Shown here: piece by piece, positions 3,165 through 34,427 of the stretch
Layout of the letters: every line of letters begins with the position of its first letter
Numbering within the stretch: the first letter of the stretch is position 1
DNA from: Chloroflexota bacterium
Lineage (GTDB): Bacteria; Chloroflexota; Anaerolineae; UBA4142; SHND01
Length of the DNA: 41,325 nucleotides
Direction of reading: 5' to 3'
NCBI GenBank assembly: GCA_016209205.1
Contig: JACQWQ010000083.1
Location: forward strand, 1 to 41,325
The notes under the pieces: generated by a model
What the model saw: only the letters and a program-made list of their open reading frames with translations
Told to the model about the DNA's origin: nothing
Database searches by the model: none
Made by a program: the position numbers and the translations under genes

Positions 3165-3837
3165 ATGAGTCGCAACGCAAAAATCGCATTGATCGTCGTC
3201 GGCACGTTGGTCGTCATTTGTTTGGGCATTTGCGGCATCCTCGTCCTCGTCGGACCGAATCTTGCCCAGCGCGCAATTTCGACCAAACCCGCCGATGCAA
3301 AAAATGTCGGCGCATCCATCGCCGACTATACCCTGCCCCCCGGCTACACCGAACAGATGGGCATGGATTTGCTCTTTGAAAAAATTGTGATGATTACGCG
3401 GGCTGACCGGCGCGGCATGTTTTTTATGCTGCTTCAGGTCTCGACACCGAACATACAGAGGTTGGCGACGTGCGTTCAGCATGTCCGCCAACCGAGTGAT
3501 CCACGAAGGACACAAAGCACACGAAGAATCTTGGTGCCCTTCGTGTCCTTCGTGGATCACCAGTCGCGCGCAAATGGAACAACAAATGCGTCAAGCATTC
3601 GCGCAGCAGTTCAATACAAGCGCGGGGACAATGGTAAAGGTCGGGGAAGAAACCGTTACGATTCGCGGGCAGCAAGTTCCGCTGACCATTTATGAATCAA
3701 AAGGTTCCGGACAGACCATGCGCCAAGCCATCTGCACCTTTACAGGCAAAAATGGTCTCGTAATGATCATGGTCACGGGCACGCTGCGCGAGTGGGATCA
3801 AGGATTGATCAATACGTTTTTGGGTTCGATTCAATGA
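3165..3837 (+). pseudogene. Membrane-anchored protein gene broken by a hairpin insertion
   Basis: The N-terminal part (3165 to about 3452) encodes a protein with one membrane helix at residues 7-30 and the segment IADYTLPPGYTEQMGMDLLF. The C-terminal part continues from about 3562 in another reading frame as SRAQMEQQMRQAFAQQ, then an extracellular-type beta-rich domain, ending at 3837. Between them lie two palindromes of roughly 110 bp in total. The inserted length is 1 modulo 3, which explains the frame change. Read through, the first frame stops at 3695 with a nonsense tail. The start has an SD (CAGGAG, 6-nt spacing). The family is not recognised; it looks like a membrane-tethered extracytoplasmic domain belonging to the MoxR/DUF58 cluster. 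It could survive as a truncated protein or be rescued by frameshifting, but disruption is the simplest reading. Confidence 0.75.
3459..3560. repeat. Twin-hairpin palindromic insertion
   Basis: Two stem-loops in tandem. The first has arms GGTTGGCG and CGCCAACC (about 3460-3494) extended inward by a near-match. The second has perfect 18-bp arms, GTGATCCACGAAGGACAC at 3496-3513 and its reverse complement at 3543-3560. The insert interrupts the gene at 3165 and shifts its frame. The CCACGAAGGACAC type of palindrome is, to my recollection, widespread between genes in several environmental phyla, so finding one inside a gene is notable. Confidence 0.85.
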
Positions 3838-8677: not shown

Positions 8678-8783
8678 TGTCAACGAATGGGAAACGAACA
8701 AACGAATCTGCGCGCGCTTTATTCGTTTATTCGTTGCGATGTGCGATGTATTCCCATCGCCTCAATCGCACCATTCGTTGACA
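8678..8783. repeat. Nested palindromic element, family copy also at 19940
   Basis: Outer perfect 13-bp arms (TGTCAACGAATGG at 8678-8690 and its complement at 8771-8783) enclose inner 15-bp arms with one mismatch (8693-8707 and 8721-8735). A third small palindrome, GCGATG...CATCGC, follows. A 27-bp stretch (8736-8762) is repeated exactly at 19940-19966 inside another palindromic element. The element fills the space between the EEP and cyclase genes. Confidence 0.85.
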
Positions 8784-19818: not shown

Positions 19819-20121
19819 TTACGCAGTTTCTTTGCAAACAGGTCCCTATCTCGAACAAGCGGAAACCAAATCAGGAAACCGCGAATCTACGCCAATCTAC
19901 GCGAATTTTTTTCGTAACCCGATTCGCGCAGAACCTGTGGCGATGTGCGATGTATTCCCATCGCCTTCATCGCATGAAGCACTGAGGGATTCGCGCAAAT
20001 TCGCGGTGGAAACATCTTTGCTCGTTGCGCAAAGATTTCATTTTTCCAGAGAAACTGCGTAACGTGAGTGAATAAATGGGAAATGAGGAAAAGAAACAAT
20101 TCCCTCGTTTCCCTCATTTCC
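19819..20121. repeat. Large nested palindrome in the lutB-lutC spacer
   Basis: Outer 13-bp arms TTACGCAGTTTCT (19819-19831) and its complement (20050-20062) enclose CCGCGAAT/ATTCGCGG half-sites and the 27-bp sequence shared with 8736-8762 (here 19940-19966). A separate hairpin (GGAAATGAGG 20079-20088, CCTCATTTCC 20112-20121) overlaps the lutB stop codon and could end or stabilise the lutAB message. No gene is seen in this 310-bp stretch. Confidence 0.75.
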
Positions 20122-25530: not shown

Positions 25531-25600
25531 CAATTCGGTGATTGGGTGATTGGGTGATTGGACGCCATCACCTAATCACCCAATCACCAATCACCCAAAT
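25531..25600. repeat. Octad array forming a hairpin (TGATTGGG units)
   Basis: Units of 8 bp (CAATTCGG, TGATTGGG x2, TGATTGGA, CGCCATCA, CCTAATCA, CCCAATCA) continue to a 7-bp unit. The first half is roughly the reverse complement of the second, so the transcript can fold into a long hairpin after the SUMF1 stop codon. This may separate that gene from the ABC operon. The remainder up to 25703 holds only the SD (GGGAGG, 25689-25694) of the next gene. Confidence 0.8.
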
Positions 25601-29398: not shown

Positions 29399-30496
29399 AT
29401 GGATTCTCTCGGCATCGGTCTCATCGGCTTTGGCATGATCGGCAAAGTTCACGCCCTCGCCTATCGCGAAATTCCGCACTTTTACCCTCGCACGCTTCCC
29501 CCCATTCAACTCGCTGCCATTTGCACGACGCGCGCGGAATCCGCAGAACGCGCCGCGCACGAAGGCGGATTCGACAATTGGACGACCAACCTTGACGAAC
29601 TTGTTTCCCGCGCAGATGTCCAAGTTGTAGACGTGTGCTTGCCGAATTATGCGCACCGTCCCACGATTCTCGCGGCGATCCATGCGGGCAAACACGTTCT
29701 CGTGGACAAACCGCTTGCGTTGAACGCGGCAGAGGCACAAGAAATTGTAGACGCCGCGCGGGAAGCGAATGTCCGCGTCGGAATGGTGTGCAATTATCGC
29801 TTTGTGCCCGCGCTGATGCTCGCGCACCAGATGATTGCCGAAGGCGCGCTGGGACAAATTTATCATTATCATATTGATTATTTGCACACGGGCTATCAAA
29901 ATCCGCAGCGCCCGATGAGTTGGCGCTTGCGTCACGCGCAATCGGGCGGCGGCGCGCTCGTGGATTTGGGATCGCACGTGATTGATATGGCGCGTTTTTT
30001 GATTGGAGAGTTTGAAACGGTGAATGCGACAACGCGCACGTACATCACCGAGCGACCAGCAGATGCGAAATCCGAGAAACGAGAAGGCGTTGACGTGGAC
30101 GACGCCGCGTGGCTCAATGCGAAAATGCAAAACGGCGCGCAGGGCACACTCTTTGTAACGCGTTTCGCGACGGGCGCGGTGGACGACATGAACGTGCAGG
30201 TGTACGGCGAACGCGGCGCATTGAAATTCAGTCTGCAAGACGGCAACGTGCTGCAATTTTTCGACGCGACGGCGAACGCGGCGACACAGGGCTGGACGCG
30301 TATTCCGACCGGCACACAGTTTCAAGGCGCGGTCGTTCCCCCCCCCCGCAGCATTCTGGGCTGGAACCGCACGCACGCGGAAAACATTTATCAATTCCTC
30401 CGCGCTGTCGTCGAAAACAAACCCTTTGCGCCGGACGCGAACGACGGACTGCGCGTGCATCAGGTGATTGACAACGCGTACGCGTTGGGCAAGTAG
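29399..30496 (+). CDS. Gfo/Idh/MocA family NAD(P)-dependent oxidoreductase
   Basis: A 365-aa sugar dehydrogenase-like protein. The N-terminal Rossmann fold starts at once (GLIGFGMIGKVHALAY, GxGxxG). The family's E/D-K-P motif is HVLVDKPLALNAAEA (about 97-111). The C-terminal catalytic fold contains GGGALVDLGSHVIDMARFLIG with the conserved Asp-x-x-x-His. It probably oxidises or epimerises a sugar or polyol imported by the adjacent transporter. The ATG at 29399 was chosen because the Rossmann strand begins six residues later. A 10-C run (30338-30347) encodes PPP. The stop codon lies inside the first unit of a 30-bp tandem array. Confidence 0.93.
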   Translation: MDSLGIGLIGFGMIGKVHALAYREIPHFYPRTLPPIQLAAICTTRAESAERAAHEGGFDNWTTNLDELVSRADVQVVDVCLPNYAHRPTILAAIHAGKHVLVDKPLALNAAEAQEIVDAAREANVRVGMVCNYRFVPALMLAHQMIAEGALGQIYHYHIDYLHTGYQNPQRPMSWRLRHAQSGGGALVDLGSHVIDMARFLIGEFETVNATTRTYITERPADAKSEKREGVDVDDAAWLNAKMQNGAQGTLFVTRFATGAVDDMNVQVYGERGALKFSLQDGNVLQFFDATANAATQGWTRIPTGTQFQGAVVPPPRSILGWNRTHAENIYQFLRAVVENKPFAPDANDGLRVHQVIDNAYALGK

Positions 30497-30698
30497 TATA
30501 GCGCCTTGTGCGCGTTGGGCAAGTAGTATAGCGCCTTGTGCGCGTTGGGCAAGTAGTATAGCGCCTTGTGCGCGTTGGGCAAGTAGTATAGCGCCTTGTG
30601 CGCGTTGGGCAAGTAGTATAGCGCCTTGTGCGCGTTGGGCAAGTAGTATACCGCCTTGTGCGCGTTGGGCAAGTAGTATACCGCCTTGTGCGCGTTGG
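30481..30698. repeat. 30-bp tandem repeat, 7 copies plus 8 nt
   Basis: Seven contiguous 30-bp units, each beginning CGCGTTGGGCAAGTAG and ending CCTTGTG, plus a partial eighth. Units 1-5 are identical; units 6 and 7 share one substitution. Unit 1 contains the last codons and stop of the Gfo/Idh gene (A-L-G-K-stop), so every later copy repeats that gene's end. There are no spacers, so this is not CRISPR. Each unit contains TAGTATA, a possible -10-like sequence. Confidence 0.97.
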
Positions 30699-30801
30699 AG
30701 ACTGGAGATTGGAAATTGCGGATTGCACATTTTGAATTTTGAATTTTGAATTTCGAATTCTGAATTTGCGATATGCGATTTGCGATACGCGATCAGCGAT
30801 G
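30697..30801. repeat. 15-unit heptad array containing the ROK start codon
   Basis: 105 bp split into fifteen 7-mers without slip: GGAGACT, GGAGATT, GGAAATT, GCGGATT, GCACATT, TTGAATT x3, TCGAATT, CTGAATT, TGCGATA, TGCGATT, TGCGATA, CGCGATC, AGCGATG. The last unit supplies the ATG (30799-30801) of the ROK gene. The units diverge gradually while the period stays exact. No SD is present. Confidence 0.95.
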
Positions 30802-31722
30802 AGCGAACTCTGGCACATCGGCGTTGACCTCGGCGCAAGCACGTTCAAATGCGGCTTGATTTCGCCCGAATGGAGAATCGTCGCGCGCAATGAAGCGCCG
30901 ACGCGCGCGTTGGAGGGTCCGGCGCAAGCCGCCGAACGCGTCGCACAAAGCGTACGCGCCTTGCAAGCACAATTGCCTGCAGGTGCGACACTTGCTGCGC
31001 TCGGCATTTGCAGTCCCGGACCGATCGAGCACAACACGGGCGTAATCGTTGACCCACCGAATCTCACGGGTTGGCGCAACGTGCCTTTCGCGCAAATGGT
31101 GCGCGAACATTTGGGCATCCCCGTTTCGCTCGAACACGACGCCAAAGCCGCCGCGCTGGGCGAATATCATTTCGGCGCGGGGCGCGGCGCAAAATCCATG
31201 GCGCTCATCATCGTCGGCACGGGCATCGGCGCGGCGTTCATCGTGGACGGCAAACTGCATCGCGGCGAACAAGACGCGGCAGGCGAGGTCGGACATTTCA
31301 CGGTAGATATGGACGGACCGATATGCACCTGCGGCTCGAACGGCTGTGTAGAAAGTTACGCGGGCGGTCCCGCCATCATGAATGCGTACATGTACGCCAC
31401 GCGCAAAAAAGTGGAATCGGCAGAAGAAATCGTCCGCGCCGCGCAAAACGGCGACGAAATCGCGCAGCGTGTCTTGCAACGCGCGGGACGCGCGCTCGGC
31501 GTGTGCATTGCAACCGTCGCGATGACGATGGACATTTCGACGTTTGTTTTGTTCGGCAGCGTCATCAGAGCAGGCGATCTGCTGCTCGAACCCGCACGTG
31601 CAACCGTGCCAAAATATTCGCACAAGTCCATCTCGTCGCGCGTGCGCGTCATGGCAGGGGAACTGGGAAACGACGCGGGGATTTTGGGCGCGGCGTGGGG
31701 GGCGCGGTCAGCGGATGGGTAA
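30799..31722 (+). CDS. ROK family sugar kinase with displaced 3' end
   Basis: A 307-aa ROK protein. The phosphate-binding strand GVDLGASTFKCGL (about 8-20), the catalytic Asp114 in EHDAKAAALGE, the GTGIGAAFIVDGKLHRG segment, and the zinc motif GH...CTCGSNGCVE are all present, so it should be an ATP-dependent sugar kinase (glucokinase-like). ROK repressors have an extra N-terminal HTH, absent here. It probably phosphorylates the sugar imported by the adjacent ABC system. The C-terminus reads GNDAGILGAAWGARSADG, while 32571-32629 downstream encodes the natural-looking tail GNDAGILGAAIEQLHVWF. An insertion of about 0.9 kb has therefore replaced the last residues, probably without abolishing activity. 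The ATG lies in a heptad array. Confidence 0.92.
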   Translation: MSELWHIGVDLGASTFKCGLISPEWRIVARNEAPTRALEGPAQAAERVAQSVRALQAQLPAGATLAALGICSPGPIEHNTGVIVDPPNLTGWRNVPFAQMVREHLGIPVSLEHDAKAAALGEYHFGAGRGAKSMALIIVGTGIGAAFIVDGKLHRGEQDAAGEVGHFTVDMDGPICTCGSNGCVESYAGGPAIMNAYMYATRKKVESAEEIVRAAQNGDEIAQRVLQRAGRALGVCIATVAMTMDISTFVLFGSVIRAGDLLLEPARATVPKYSHKSISSRVRVMAGELGNDAGILGAAWGARSADG

Positions 31723-31783
31723 AGCGGATGAGCGGATGGACGATTCTCGTTCCGCACCCACAGCATGAACGAATATCTATTTC

Positions 31784-32305
31784 ATGGTGCTACAAATGAA
31801 AAACAAACTCGACCCGTCTATTCCACATCAAGACATCACATATCGTATCATCGGCTGCGCAATGCGCGTGCATAATCGGTTAGGACCGGGGTTGCGCGAG
31901 AAAATGTATCAACGCGCGTTGACGGCGGAAATGCGTGCGGACGGGATGGAAGTGATTGAAGAATATCGCATTGACGTTTACGATGGCGATGTGTGGATTG
32001 GAACAACCTATCCCGATCATTGGGTCGAAAATAAAGTCGTCGTCGAAGTGGAGGCGTTTTCACATTTTTTGACCAAGACCGAAATTGCGCAGACGATTGG
32101 TTTTCTGGCAGCAGCAAACACGCCCGTAGGATTACTGATCAATTTCGGTCGTAAGCGATTGGACTATCAAAGAATTTTGCTGCCAAATGATTTACAGGAT
32201 TGGAAAAAATATATCACGCGTTTTCTATGGCGTCCGCCGGGAGCAGGACCGCCACAACGCGCGCGGGAGGAAGGGCAGCTGCCAGCGGATGATAAAAGCG
32301 GATAA
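31784..32305 (+). CDS. GxxExxY family protein (PD-(D/E)XK-like)
   Basis: A 173-aa protein; the family signature is LGPGLREKMYQRAL (G-L-R-E-K-M-Y). The N-terminal DITYRIIGCAMRVHNRL and the distal TEIAQTIGFLAAANTPVGLLINFGRKRLDYQRI are diagnostic. To my recollection the family (TIGR04256/PF13366) has the PD-(D/E)XK nuclease fold; the catalytic strand normally reads D..VE..VVVELKA, but here it is PDHWVENKVVVEVEAF, with Glu replacing the Lys. The last ~22 residues (from about RPPGAGPPQ) are encoded by adjoining repeat DNA. ATG 31784 or 31796 is possible. It lies within the insertion in the ROK gene; function unknown. Confidence 0.85.
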   Translation: MVLQMKNKLDPSIPHQDITYRIIGCAMRVHNRLGPGLREKMYQRALTAEMRADGMEVIEEYRIDVYDGDVWIGTTYPDHWVENKVVVEVEAFSHFLTKTEIAQTIGFLAAANTPVGLLINFGRKRLDYQRILLPNDLQDWKKYITRFLWRPPGAGPPQRAREEGQLPADDKSG

Positions 32306-32560
32306 TCGGATGCGAGCGCGCCCATCCGCTTTCCATTATCCGCGCGCTTGGTTCGGCGCACAGCTGCCAGCGGATACATAAAGCGGATAAGCGGATACCG
32401 TACGCGCCCATCTGCTCATCCGCTTTCCCGAATCCGCTGGCAGCTGTCCACACGGGGATTTTGGGCACGGCGGGGGGGGAGCTGCCAGCGGATACATAAA
32501 GCGGATAAGCGGATACGTACGCGCCCATCCGCTTATCCGCTTTACCAAATCCGCTGTCCA
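32262..32560. repeat. Cluster of AGCGGAT-type palindromic elements
   Basis: Three related ~90-bp palindromes (about 32262-32335, 32346-32440 and 32480-32558). Each has CAGCTGCCAGCGGAT, AGCGGATAAGCGGAT-type 8-bp steps, a GTACGCGCCCAT centre and the complementary ATCCGCTTATCCGCT arm. The middle copy ends in ATCCGCTGGCAGCTG, giving a full palindrome. A decayed relative follows the ROK stop at 31711-31745. They have multiplied locally beside the GxxExxY gene. Confidence 0.85.
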
Positions 32561-32568
32561 TGTGCAGA

Positions 32569-32629
32569 TGGGAAACGACGCGGGGATTTTGGGCGCGGCA
32601 ATTGAACAGCTTCACGTTTGGTTCTGACC
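32569..32629 (+). pseudogene. Orphaned C-terminal tail of the ROK gene
   Basis: In frame this reads GNDAGILGAAIEQLHVWF followed by TGA (32627-32629). It has the ordinary look of a ROK C-terminus and matches the current ROK protein up to GILGAA before diverging. It is the displaced original end of the kinase gene, now untranslated. Confidence 0.75.
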
Positions 32630-32653
32630 AAGGTTTCTGCAAAGGACTCGTCT

Positions 32654-33286
32654 ATGTTTGACACTCCTGACTTGATGCCATTGTGTGTTGCTCCTATTCT
32701 TGCACTTACTGTTGGTGCGTTAGTCTATGTGCTTGGCAAAGCGCTCAAAAAAATGATTGAAAAGCGCACTGGCGAGGATCAGCCACTGATGGACTTTATC
32801 ACTTTGTTGTCTGTTGTGATTGTCGTACCAGTTGCCTGCTATGCATCGCTCGCACTCGAAATCGGCATTCGTTCACCTGCCCCTTGGATTCAACCCAGTA
32901 CAAATGATATTGTCGGCAAATGGGAATTGTCTAAAGGTTCGGCGGAAACCCTTCAAAAAACGTTTCACGTCGTATCAACGGAAGGAGAACTCGTTTTTAA
33001 TCAAGATGGGACATTCCAGTTAAAAAGCATGCCGACTTTCTGGGGGTTGTCAAAAACTCCTTTTCCACAAAGCCAGAAATATATTTCGGGCAATGGCACG
33101 TGGTATTTGGGACAAATGGAAGGATCTCAAAGATTGGAATGGGCTATCTTTGCACAGTTCCAAAACATAAACGACAAACCAGAAAATCGGTCAATGCGCT
33201 TTTATTTTGAGGGACATTTGGCTCCATATTCACTTGTTGCAATGGACAATGACAACTCTGTCTATTATCGCTATGAGAAGCGGTAG
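32654..33286 (+). CDS. Two-helix membrane protein with lipocalin-like domain, unknown
   Basis: A 210-aa protein. The ATG at 32654 has AAAGGA 7 nt upstream. Two hydrophobic helices (about residues 9-30 and 48-72) are separated by a basic loop (KALKKMIEKRTGED). The rest is a beta-rich extracytoplasmic domain starting IVGKWELSKGSAETLQ and continuing GELVFNQDGTFQLKSMP, a pattern seen in lipocalin-like domains. The codon use and base composition are clearly less GC-rich than in every neighbour, which suggests recent acquisition, perhaps with the adjacent insertion. No specific family recognised. Confidence 0.75.
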   Translation: MFDTPDLMPLCVAPILALTVGALVYVLGKALKKMIEKRTGEDQPLMDFITLLSVVIVVPVACYASLALEIGIRSPAPWIQPSTNDIVGKWELSKGSAETLQKTFHVVSTEGELVFNQDGTFQLKSMPTFWGLSKTPFPQSQKYISGNGTWYLGQMEGSQRLEWAIFAQFQNINDKPENRSMRFYFEGHLAPYSLVAMDNDNSVYYRYEKR

Positions 33287-33346: not shown

Positions 33347-34357
33347 ATGCTTGTTCCTGTCTTCACGGGCGAAGGTCGTCTCGAAATCCAAGAGCGCCCC
33401 TTACCACAAATCAAAAATCAGGATGATGTTTTATTGCGCGTCGAAGCGTGCGGTTTGTGCGGCACCGATTTGAATATCCTTGCCGTGCCGCCCGCGCACA
33501 AAGCCGCGCCCGGCACCGTGCTCGGACATGAATTTGTCGGCACGGTCGAAGCCATTGGCGCGGGCGTGAAATATCTACGCGAAGGCGACCGCGTCGTCGT
33601 CGCGCCGCGTTTGATTTGCAATCAATGTCGCTACTGCCGCCGTGGGTTTCCGAATCAATGCGAAGATTACAAAACGCTCGGCATCTCGCTAGACGGTGGG
33701 CTGGCGCCGTACGTCGTCGCGCCCGAACGCGCGTTGTATAAAATCTCGCGCGATGTGCCGCTCGACGACGCGGTGTTCGCCGAAGTGCTTTCGTGCGTCG
33801 CCAGCGGCACGACGCGCGTTCCCGTCCACGCAGGCGAGAATGTTGTGATTCTCGGCGCGGGTCCCGTCGGTTTGTTGTACGGCATGGTGTATCGCGCGGG
33901 CGGCGCGGGAAAAATCATCATGACCGATGTCGCGCCGTTCCGTCTCGACATGGCAAGGAAAAATGGCGCGGATGTTGCCATCCATTCGCGCGAGCAAGAT
34001 GTCGAAGCGATTGTACAAGAACACACCGACATTGGCGCGGACATTGTCGTGGACGCGGTGGGATCACTGCTGCCGCAAGCGTTGAAACTTGCGCGGCGCG
34101 GCGGACGCATTGTGTTGTTCGGGATGCAGCCGCACGCGCTGCCGCCCGTTTCGCAGTATCTCATCACGCGTTACGAATTGACGGTGTATGGCGCGTTCGG
34201 CGCGGCGAATCAATTCCCCGGCGTCGTGCAAATGCTCGAAAGCGGCGTCGTGAAACCATCGCCCTTGATTACGCACCACATTCCCGCGACCGAAGCATCC
34301 AAAGCATTCGACGCGATGCGCGCGGGTGAAACGATGAAAGTTGTTATAGTCCATTAG
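33347..34357 (+). CDS. Zinc-dependent medium-chain alcohol/polyol dehydrogenase
   Basis: A 336-aa MDR dehydrogenase. The catalytic zinc site has Cys38 in CGLCGTDLN and His61-Glu62 in GHEFVGTV. The structural zinc is held by Cys91, Cys94, Cys97 and Cys105 in CNQCRYCRRGFPNQC. The NAD(P) Rossmann motif is VVILGAGPVGLLYG (about 165-178). The closest types are sorbitol, threonine and galactitol dehydrogenases; polyol oxidation fits the surrounding sugar genes. The ATG at 33347 follows AAAGGGG about 6 nt upstream. Its stop codon merges with an octad array leading to the HAD gene. Confidence 0.93.
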   Translation: MLVPVFTGEGRLEIQERPLPQIKNQDDVLLRVEACGLCGTDLNILAVPPAHKAAPGTVLGHEFVGTVEAIGAGVKYLREGDRVVVAPRLICNQCRYCRRGFPNQCEDYKTLGISLDGGLAPYVVAPERALYKISRDVPLDDAVFAEVLSCVASGTTRVPVHAGENVVILGAGPVGLLYGMVYRAGGAGKIIMTDVAPFRLDMARKNGADVAIHSREQDVEAIVQEHTDIGADIVVDAVGSLLPQALKLARRGGRIVLFGMQPHALPPVSQYLITRYELTVYGAFGAANQFPGVVQMLESGVVKPSPLITHHIPATEASKAFDAMRAGETMKVVIVH

Positions 34358-34427
34358 TCGGATCGTCGGATGGTCGGTTGGTCAATCCACTCGACTATCC
34401 GACTATCCGACTGCCCGACCATCCGAC
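34356..34427. repeat. Nine-unit octad array with inverted halves
   Basis: Nine 8-bp units in exact register: AGTCGGAT, CGTCGGAT, GGTCGGTT, GGTCAATC, CACTCGAC, TATCCGAC x2, TGCCCGAC, CATCCGAC. The next base starts T-ATG of the HAD gene (ATG 34429). The first units (GTCGGAT) are reverse complements of the last (ATCCGAC), so the array can fold on itself. It begins within the previous stop codon and is the same octad family as positions 1-64. No SD. Confidence 0.95.

Follow-up and report, generated by a model that had tools for sequence, protein, structure and literature searches.

Results

The ROK kinase gene and the cassette behind it

Within the window, i.e. the whole 41,325-nucleotide stretch of DNA that was analysed, a ROK-family sugar kinase gene occupies positions 30799..31722 of the forward strand (PF00480, 231 bits). 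Behind it lie a cassette consisting of a small gene set among palindromic repeats and, from position 33347, a dehydrogenase-like gene, which has a counterpart in the same-genus genome G002. The cassette is thus placed between two protein-coding genes and not in a 23S rRNA helix. Reading from the ROK end, it comprises a left arm (31709..31742, forward strand) with three AGCGGAT words at 31710, 31723 and 31731, a GxxExxY gene (31784..32305, forward strand; PF13366, PD-(D/E)XK fold) with a possible second start at 31796, and three hairpins at 32277..32346, 32360..32447 and 32480..32559. The first hairpin has a right arm that is one word short, the second is formed by ACAGCTGCCAGCGGAT … ATCCGCTGGCAGCTGT, and the left arm of the cassette pairs best, in inverted orientation, with the right arm of the third (32522-32559). 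The ROK stop codon (31720-31722) falls within the left arm, and between 31710 and 32555 the word AGCGGAT occurs 11 times and ATCCGCT six times.

The 31-bp sequence TGGGAAACGACGCGGGGATTTTGGGCGCGGC is present as an exact duplicate on the forward strand, once at 31664..31694, where it belongs to the native end of the ROK gene, and once at 32569..32599, beyond the last arm, where non-ROK sequence follows. A third, decayed copy of the ROK end (32450..32479, forward strand) occupies the interval between hairpins 2 and 3, matches the sequence at 31673 by 85% over 65 nt and continues into hairpin 3. An earlier, sequence-only reading of this DNA had reported the exact duplication, the decayed copy, and a GxxExxY gene with AGCGGAT palindromes enclosed between the exact copies, and all of these were confirmed. 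It had further taken IEQLHVWF-stop, after the second exact copy, as the natural ROK tail and concluded that an insertion had displaced the 3' end of the gene, and neither of these proposals was sustained. The IEQLH tail was present in none of 120 ROK homologues (the 120 matches listed, of 715), LGA[AVL][WYLM] was found near the C-terminal end in 83 of the same 120, and the closest homologues among the matches listed end in GILGAAWGA..., in agreement with copy 1. In G002 the ROK gene ends in GILGAAWEEK-stop and is followed by approximately 60 bp containing an unrelated palindrome, and then by the counterpart of the window gene starting at 33347. Because the homologue tails and G002 both point to copy 1 as the native end (…GILGAAWGARSADG-stop), the ROK gene keeps its own end, neither displaced nor cut open, with the cassette sitting behind it.

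In the comparison with a sister genome that the sequence-only reading had suggested, the cassette is absent from the ROK–dehydrogenase junction of G002, and the approximately 1.6 kb present in the window and missing there consists of the cassette together with a further open reading frame (32618-33286), for which no Pfam or NCBIfam match was found. The 31-bp copies look more like the product of tandem amplification of a hairpin along with its flank, and similar hairpin-plus-flank tandem arrays are present at contigs C7 (period 96) and C264 (period approximately 95).

The GxxExxY protein

The protein encoded by the cassette is a clear member of the GxxExxY / PDDEXK_3 family, scoring 100.1 bits with TIGR04256 (cut-off 35) and 99 bits with PF13366 (cut-off 22). 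PF13366 was the sole domain found by profile search, with no Y1 (HUH) transposase, DDE enzyme or S23p (PF05635) domain detected in the same search. The aspartate and glutamate of the motif are kept in the window protein as D78 and E88, with glutamate in place of the catalytic lysine at position 90, a replacement that marks the window subfamily and is seen in 45/120 homologues. The active enzyme BamHI has an ExE motif. Across 107 non-redundant proteins, the PD-(D/E)XK aspartate is kept in all 107 and the acidic residue preceding the lysine in 105.

A predicted helix at residues 16-33 (mean pLDDT 83.8) contains the candidate word-reading residues T19, M27, H30 and N31. Fold neighbours include the Cas4-like protein SSO0001, lambda exonuclease, MGME1, Holliday resolvases and restriction enzymes, and the best structural match begins at residue 33, so that this first helix falls outside it; a sequence search against solved structures gave no significant match (best E 0.092). 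No role for the GxxExxY family, no occurrence of the name PDDEXK_3 and no description of such cassettes was found in the open-access literature searched, where GxxExxY is named in two papers and PF13366 in one.

Inverted arms around GxxExxY genes

The genome to which the window belongs contains 11 PF13366 matches at 10 loci, one reading frame on contig C3 holding two of the matches. At six of these 10 loci, including the window, inverted arms of at least 26 bits were found within 300 bp of the match, and a seventh (C3) shows arms if the distance is counted from the ends of the entire frame instead. The words in these arms are AGCGGAT in the window, AACGGAT (C7), AACGAAT (C84), CACGAAGGA (C206), CGCGGATAA (C276) and CGCGAATCT (C108). 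When five same-genus genomes are included, arms are present at 12/21 loci, the cleanest cassette with the same word throughout being L084, which runs left arm, gene, right arm. The branch of the family with the THCMEVDYQ motif (L008, L011, L081, L085, L086 and L087) showed no bracketing inverted arms, although a cluster of GCGAA-type repeats lies upstream at four of the six.

For named genomes, the best 80 of 559 confirmed loci were taken, a sample that was picked with two peptides from one subfamily and is not random; 79 were usable, with L145 dropped because its flank was too short. Arms were called, with one alignment score, as an inverted repeat of at least 30 bits between the 300 bp upstream and the 300 bp downstream. 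They were found at 53/79 named loci (among the best 80 of 559), compared with 2/105 neighbouring open reading frames (from 59 of the named loci) and 469/6162 same-flank mismatched pairings, the last of these rates being above zero because many cassettes share a word core. By record title, the loci with arms belong to at least a dozen phylum-level groups, with titles naming Chloroflexi, Pseudomonadota, Geobacter, Bacteroidetes, Ignavibacteriales, Planctomycetes, Verrucomicrobia, Lentisphaera, Sumerlaeota, Cloacimonadota, Firmicutes, Treponema, Holophagaceae and Tectomicrobia.

Among 60 relatives, matches to the window protein were listed at 86 places, eight of them in the own genome, and 69 of the 78 others were taken, 68 with enough flank. 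Arms of at least 30 bits were present at 44/68 of these loci compared with 157/4556 mismatched pairs, at 39/63 when five loci repeating others were removed, and at 53/68 when loci were scored singly at 26 bits. The proposed tie between the GxxExxY gene and its palindromes is thus borne out, inverted arms being present around other GxxExxY loci as well. AGCGGAT as a signature of the family was ruled out, given the other spellings carried by other loci.

Word spelling and residues of the first helix

An arm is mostly a threefold repeat of a word 7-10 bp long. The word core is C[A/G]C[G/A/T][A/G]A[N], [A/T]CC commonly precedes the first word of an arm, and each cassette has one main spelling. Pairs of words within the same cassette were identical at a frequency of 0.746, compared with 0.163 expected from pooled frequencies, where word labels were assigned by a fixed core expression and the count covered those 113 of 128 armed cassettes in which one word predominated and the gene was free of internal stops, a selection that raises the 0.746.

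Words and proteins were compared over the 107 proteins remaining after removal of those at least 95% identical, the window protein among them, with residues numbered from E1 of EEAYAIVGAAMEVYNELG in L079. Across these non-redundant loci, the final base of the word tracks residues 11 and 15 taken together (the pairs given here cover 96 of the 107). Words ending in T accompany M+N (23/23), F+N (8/8), M+R (8/8), Y+N (5/5), M+K (3/3) and M+S (2/2), words ending in G accompany I+R (17/17), words ending in A accompany F+K (15/15) and F+R (8/8), and words ending in C accompany M+H (2/2); the exception is I+K, with G in three cases and T in two. The two bases preceding the final A track residue 3, with GA for V, A or C in 41/41 and for S in 22/24, and GG or AG for T in 37/41. 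In the window protein, positions 3, 11, 14 and 15 are T, M, H and N (own residues 19, 27, 30 and 31), which fit CGGAT, the word observed in the window.

Two controls for shared ancestry were applied to the last-base relationship. The first compared disjoint pairs of closest proteins, 45 differing in last base and 45 with the same word, which are imperfectly matched in mean identity (0.61 and 0.68, respectively). Residues 11, 14 and 15 differed in 77%, 64% and 87% of the pairs with differing last base and in 16%, 13% and 38% of the same-word pairs, with column medians of 40% and 27%, and these three residues took the top three ranks of all columns tested. In the second control, the last base was predicted after training without proteins of at least 0.60 identity; residues 11, 14 and 15 predicted 77/107, compared with a majority baseline of 56 and a best random residue triple at 0.54. 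Residues 2, 3 and 6 reached 75-77/107 compared with a baseline of 66-67 and a best random triple at 0.77, and because they do not clearly pass this prediction test, the residue-3 rule suggested by the sequences is held as weaker than the residue 11/15 rule.

Gene-less hairpins

A triple-word AGCGGAT pattern, allowing up to three mismatches, had 58 matches in the genome compared with none for the reversed-pattern control, and 50 of these 58 matches (half-sites) sit away from PF13366 loci. Double-word hairpins were sampled in 441 kb of the own genome (G000) and in 200 kb each of G008, G009, G019 and G030, with three CAAAT matches in G009 set aside as another repeat, and reversed-word controls gave no double-word hairpins in the five samples. 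Away from cassettes, G000 contained three CGAAT and three CGGAT hairpins, a further seven CGGAT hairpins lying at the C7 and window cassettes. Gene-less hairpins in the other samples were one CGAAT in G008, two CAGAG and one CAGAT in G009, and one each of CGAAG, CGAAT and CGGAC in G030, with none in G019. These hairpins carry the word of a cassette in the same genome in 12/13 cases (the exception being the CGAAT hairpin of G030), a small sample in which the match in G000 is undemanding, as that genome has cassettes of three word classes.

Among relatives, the idea that AGCGGAT hairpins strictly accompany the window-type protein was only partly borne out: genus genomes without the window-type protein have 1, 8, 12 and 3 same-word hairpin hits compared with 58 here, and G004, which has a window-type gene, has five, two of which are its own arms. 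Heptad-word hairpins of other spellings are abundant in the own genome. With regard to possible vehicles, matches to one query were rare in plasmid (8/72,556) and phage (2/50,697) records. A Y1 transposase as the mover was rejected, the genome having four such genes, two without an inverted repeat and two with repeats of another type.

Presence, absence and decay of cassettes

As at the G002 junction, the cassette at L001 is absent from the matching junction in G001-G004, where gaps of 82-164 bp correspond to 1.5 kb, and this 1.5 kb also contains another gene. In both cases the DNA missing from the cassette-free site thus includes another gene besides the cassette, so that neither represents a clean one-step insertion. 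At L009 the flanking genes are differently placed in the sister genomes, which gave no readable empty site. The sister genomes compared are separate species, and movement between strains was not observed.

At one further site, the cassette has been retained by all five genus genomes that show the site, and the gene behind it has a start like that of glucose-1-phosphate adenylyltransferase. The words at this site are CGCGAATCT (L004 and L079), CACGAATAA (L078), CGCGGATAA (L083) and CGCGAATTTT (L080). In two of the five orthologous cassettes the gene is broken, by a stop in L080 and by loss of frame in L083, with the arms kept in both, and internal stops occur in 11/86 listed matches to the window protein. 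Cassettes are therefore inherited, often vertically given the one site kept in five genomes, and they change spelling and decay, as well as appearing at new places.

Identical direct repeats, which the sequence-only reading had suggested looking for at each cassette, were not established as a general feature. A shared word of at least 7 bp was found at the outer edges in 7/40 own pairs compared with 58/1560 mismatched pairs. This is an excess, but the seven shared words are for the most part AT-rich, only those of L155 and L182 being longer and mixed, and no consistent target-site duplication was established from the 40 own pairs.

Cassettes around PF05635 genes

The own genome contains 25 PF05635 (S23p) matches, and 14/19 of those tested had inverted repeats, built largely from words of 7-8 bp, compared with 7/342 mismatched pairs, the five without repeats being weak matches. 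In nine other genomes, arms of at least 30 bits were found at 26/30 PF05635 loci, the 30 that came as loci among 52 matches listed, compared with 17/870 mismatched pairs. Similarity of protein and similarity of arm are correlated over 37 loci (r 0.57, with none of 5000 permutations as high), a permutation that leaves shared ancestry in. PF05635 genes share the anatomy of the GxxExxY cassette, with other words. In Coxiella, an intervening sequence (IVS) of 428 nt with a 28-bp terminal stem and an S23p gene inside is described as of unclear origin (PMC4990558).

Discussion

Interpretation of the cassettes

The window holds one copy of a widespread GxxExxY gene-in-palindrome cassette, whose protein is predicted to bind the arm word and probably spreads both the cassettes and the gene-less hairpins. 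By analogy, such cassettes are probably REP/RAYT-like selfish elements with a reader of PD-(D/E)XK fold. The likely course of events begins with contact between the first helix and the word, either as DNA or as transcript. The arms, or a cruciform formed by them, would then be nicked or cut by the PD-(D/E)XK domain, and break repair or replication would place further copies of the hairpin elsewhere, some including the gene and some lacking it. The same process could multiply the hairpin in tandem along with its flank, which would explain the copies of the ROK end in the window; there, the left arm and gene likely entered the small interval that follows the ROK gene, after which the hairpins would have multiplied, taking the ROK-end copies along.

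An unlikely alternative that has some evidence on its side is that nothing moves, the arms being operators, the GxxExxY protein a small autoregulator acting on iterated words, and the scattered hairpins regulon sites or relics. In its favour, arms lie tight around the gene, a code between protein and word requires binding alone, the catalytic lysine is replaced in the window subfamily, and one cassette site has been kept in five species. However, inverted operators on both sides that change their word in concert would be unusual, sister sites lack the cassette, genes decay while arms persist, and the PD-(D/E)XK aspartate (107/107) and the acidic residue preceding the lysine (105/107) have been kept.

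Somewhat less probable again is spread of the hairpins by another agent, such as a transposase, replication slippage or template switching, with GxxExxY proteins as passengers or defenders. Slippage is what the tandem amplification with flank resembles, and the heptad-word hairpins of other spellings that abound in this genome also enclose unrelated PF05635 genes; but each protein family has its own word type, protein sequence tracks spelling in both families (for PF05635 without the ancestry control applied to GxxExxY), and the four Y1 transposases are few, with other repeats in two cases and none in two. It is highly improbable that an insertion inside the ROK gene pushed its 3' end away and produced the 31-bp copies as a target duplication. 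Exact 31-bp copies do flank the unit, but the tail after copy 2 occurs in 0/120 listed homologues, the native end being copy 1; another copy is found between hairpins, flank copies have multiplied elsewhere (C7 and C264), and no such repeat is established at other cassettes. G002, whose cassette-free ROK gene ends much as copy 1 does, comes close to refuting this reading.

The interpretation as a cassette whose protein reads and spreads its own arms can be extended to a broader proposal, for which belief and doubt are nearly balanced, with doubt slightly the stronger. Under this proposal, GxxExxY cassettes would be an undescribed, multi-phylum form of selfish DNA. A single PD-(D/E)XK protein would read the iterated word at its own inverted ends by an amino-acid-to-base code, rewrite the arms in concert as the protein changes and seed gene-less hairpins, with PF05635 as a second, independent family; if so, rRNA intervening sequences would be one special form of a mobile element of wider occurrence. 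No role was found in the literature searched for GxxExxY, a common annotation, and the cassette interpretation supplies a testable one, while also accounting for intergenic palindromes overlooked by annotation. It further provides a protein-to-word code that can be read off about a hundred natural cases, and a comparative footing for the open question of the origin of rRNA intervening sequences.

Comparison with known systems

Terminal inverted repeats and short gene-less derivatives are shared with MITEs and DDE insertion sequences, from which the cassettes differ in that no DDE domain was found in the window protein; nor was a regular short target duplication established. As described (PMC4990558), the 23S rRNA IVS resembles the cassettes in carrying a small gene (PF05635) in the loop of a stem of approximately 30 bp terminal inverted repeats, within a unit of a few hundred bp; in contrast, the GxxExxY cassette lies outside rRNA, encodes another protein family, has arms of iterated words and has gene-less copies. 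Compared with the GxxExxY family as catalogued (TIGR04256, PF13366), of which the window protein is a member, what differs here is the tie to flanking repeats.

A further likeness is to REP sequences and their RAYT transposases (IS200/IS605-related), which (PMC2817692) share the arrangement of one gene between two inverted repeats, scattered gene-less copies and tandem arrays. The enzyme there is of Y1/HUH type, whereas the GxxExxY cassettes encode a PD-(D/E)XK protein, and the GTAG-headed palindrome there contrasts with arms of iterated words, commonly [A/T]CC-led. On inspection of the GxxExxY arm listings, no GTAG/CGTC-type head with a simple palindrome was seen, and the residue-to-base code would take the place of the head motif. 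A logic similar to that of REP and RAYT, with a PD-(D/E)XK-like protein in the role of the transposase, was the comparison made by the sequence-only reading, and it proves apt well beyond the window, with arms at 53/79 of the named loci and 44/68 of those in relatives.

Iterated words and other features in the window

Additional iterated-word hairpins lie within the window at 3496-3560, 8682-8779, 19880-20005, 25537-25595 and 34357-34427. Among the words from which the window hairpins are built, CACGAAG, AACGAAT and CGCGAAT are also the words of resident GxxExxY cassettes, and GGTGATTG is the word of a PF05635 cassette (23S rRNA IVS protein family); for GTCGGAT, no matching cassette was noticed. 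Upstream of the ROK region, a 30-bp unit, TAGTATAGCGCCTTGTGCGCGTTGGGCAAG, occurs in approximately seven repeats at 30481-30690, beginning at the end of an oxidoreductase-like gene, and hairpins resembling this unit in sequence are present at loci L102 and L103. Beyond the window cassette, a 222-aa ORF (32618-33286), which has no Pfam or NCBIfam match, is missing from the corresponding junction between the ROK and dehydrogenase-like genes in the same-genus sister genome G002.

Repeats and arms in other loci and genomes

In genome G010, six AGCGGAT triple-word sites are packed into 1 kb of contig C79 (12170-13226), a contig with no reported match in the search with the window protein. A control neighbouring ORF at L113 (883-1828) is surrounded by an inverted repeat of 85 bits and may represent another cassette or an insertion sequence. 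At L307 (12158-12471), TAGGACAAATTTGCAAATTTGTCC is densely repeated, with some N masking, and is a repeat of a different kind. Within many arms (e.g. L111, L126, L154 and L166), CGAA is frequently replaced by CTAA, a single G to T change, with the remaining letters of the word kept. Inverted arms, with words mostly of 7-8 bp, were also observed on both sides of PF05635 genes (L052-L066 and L343-L372), some of these arms being arrays of at least 10 copies.
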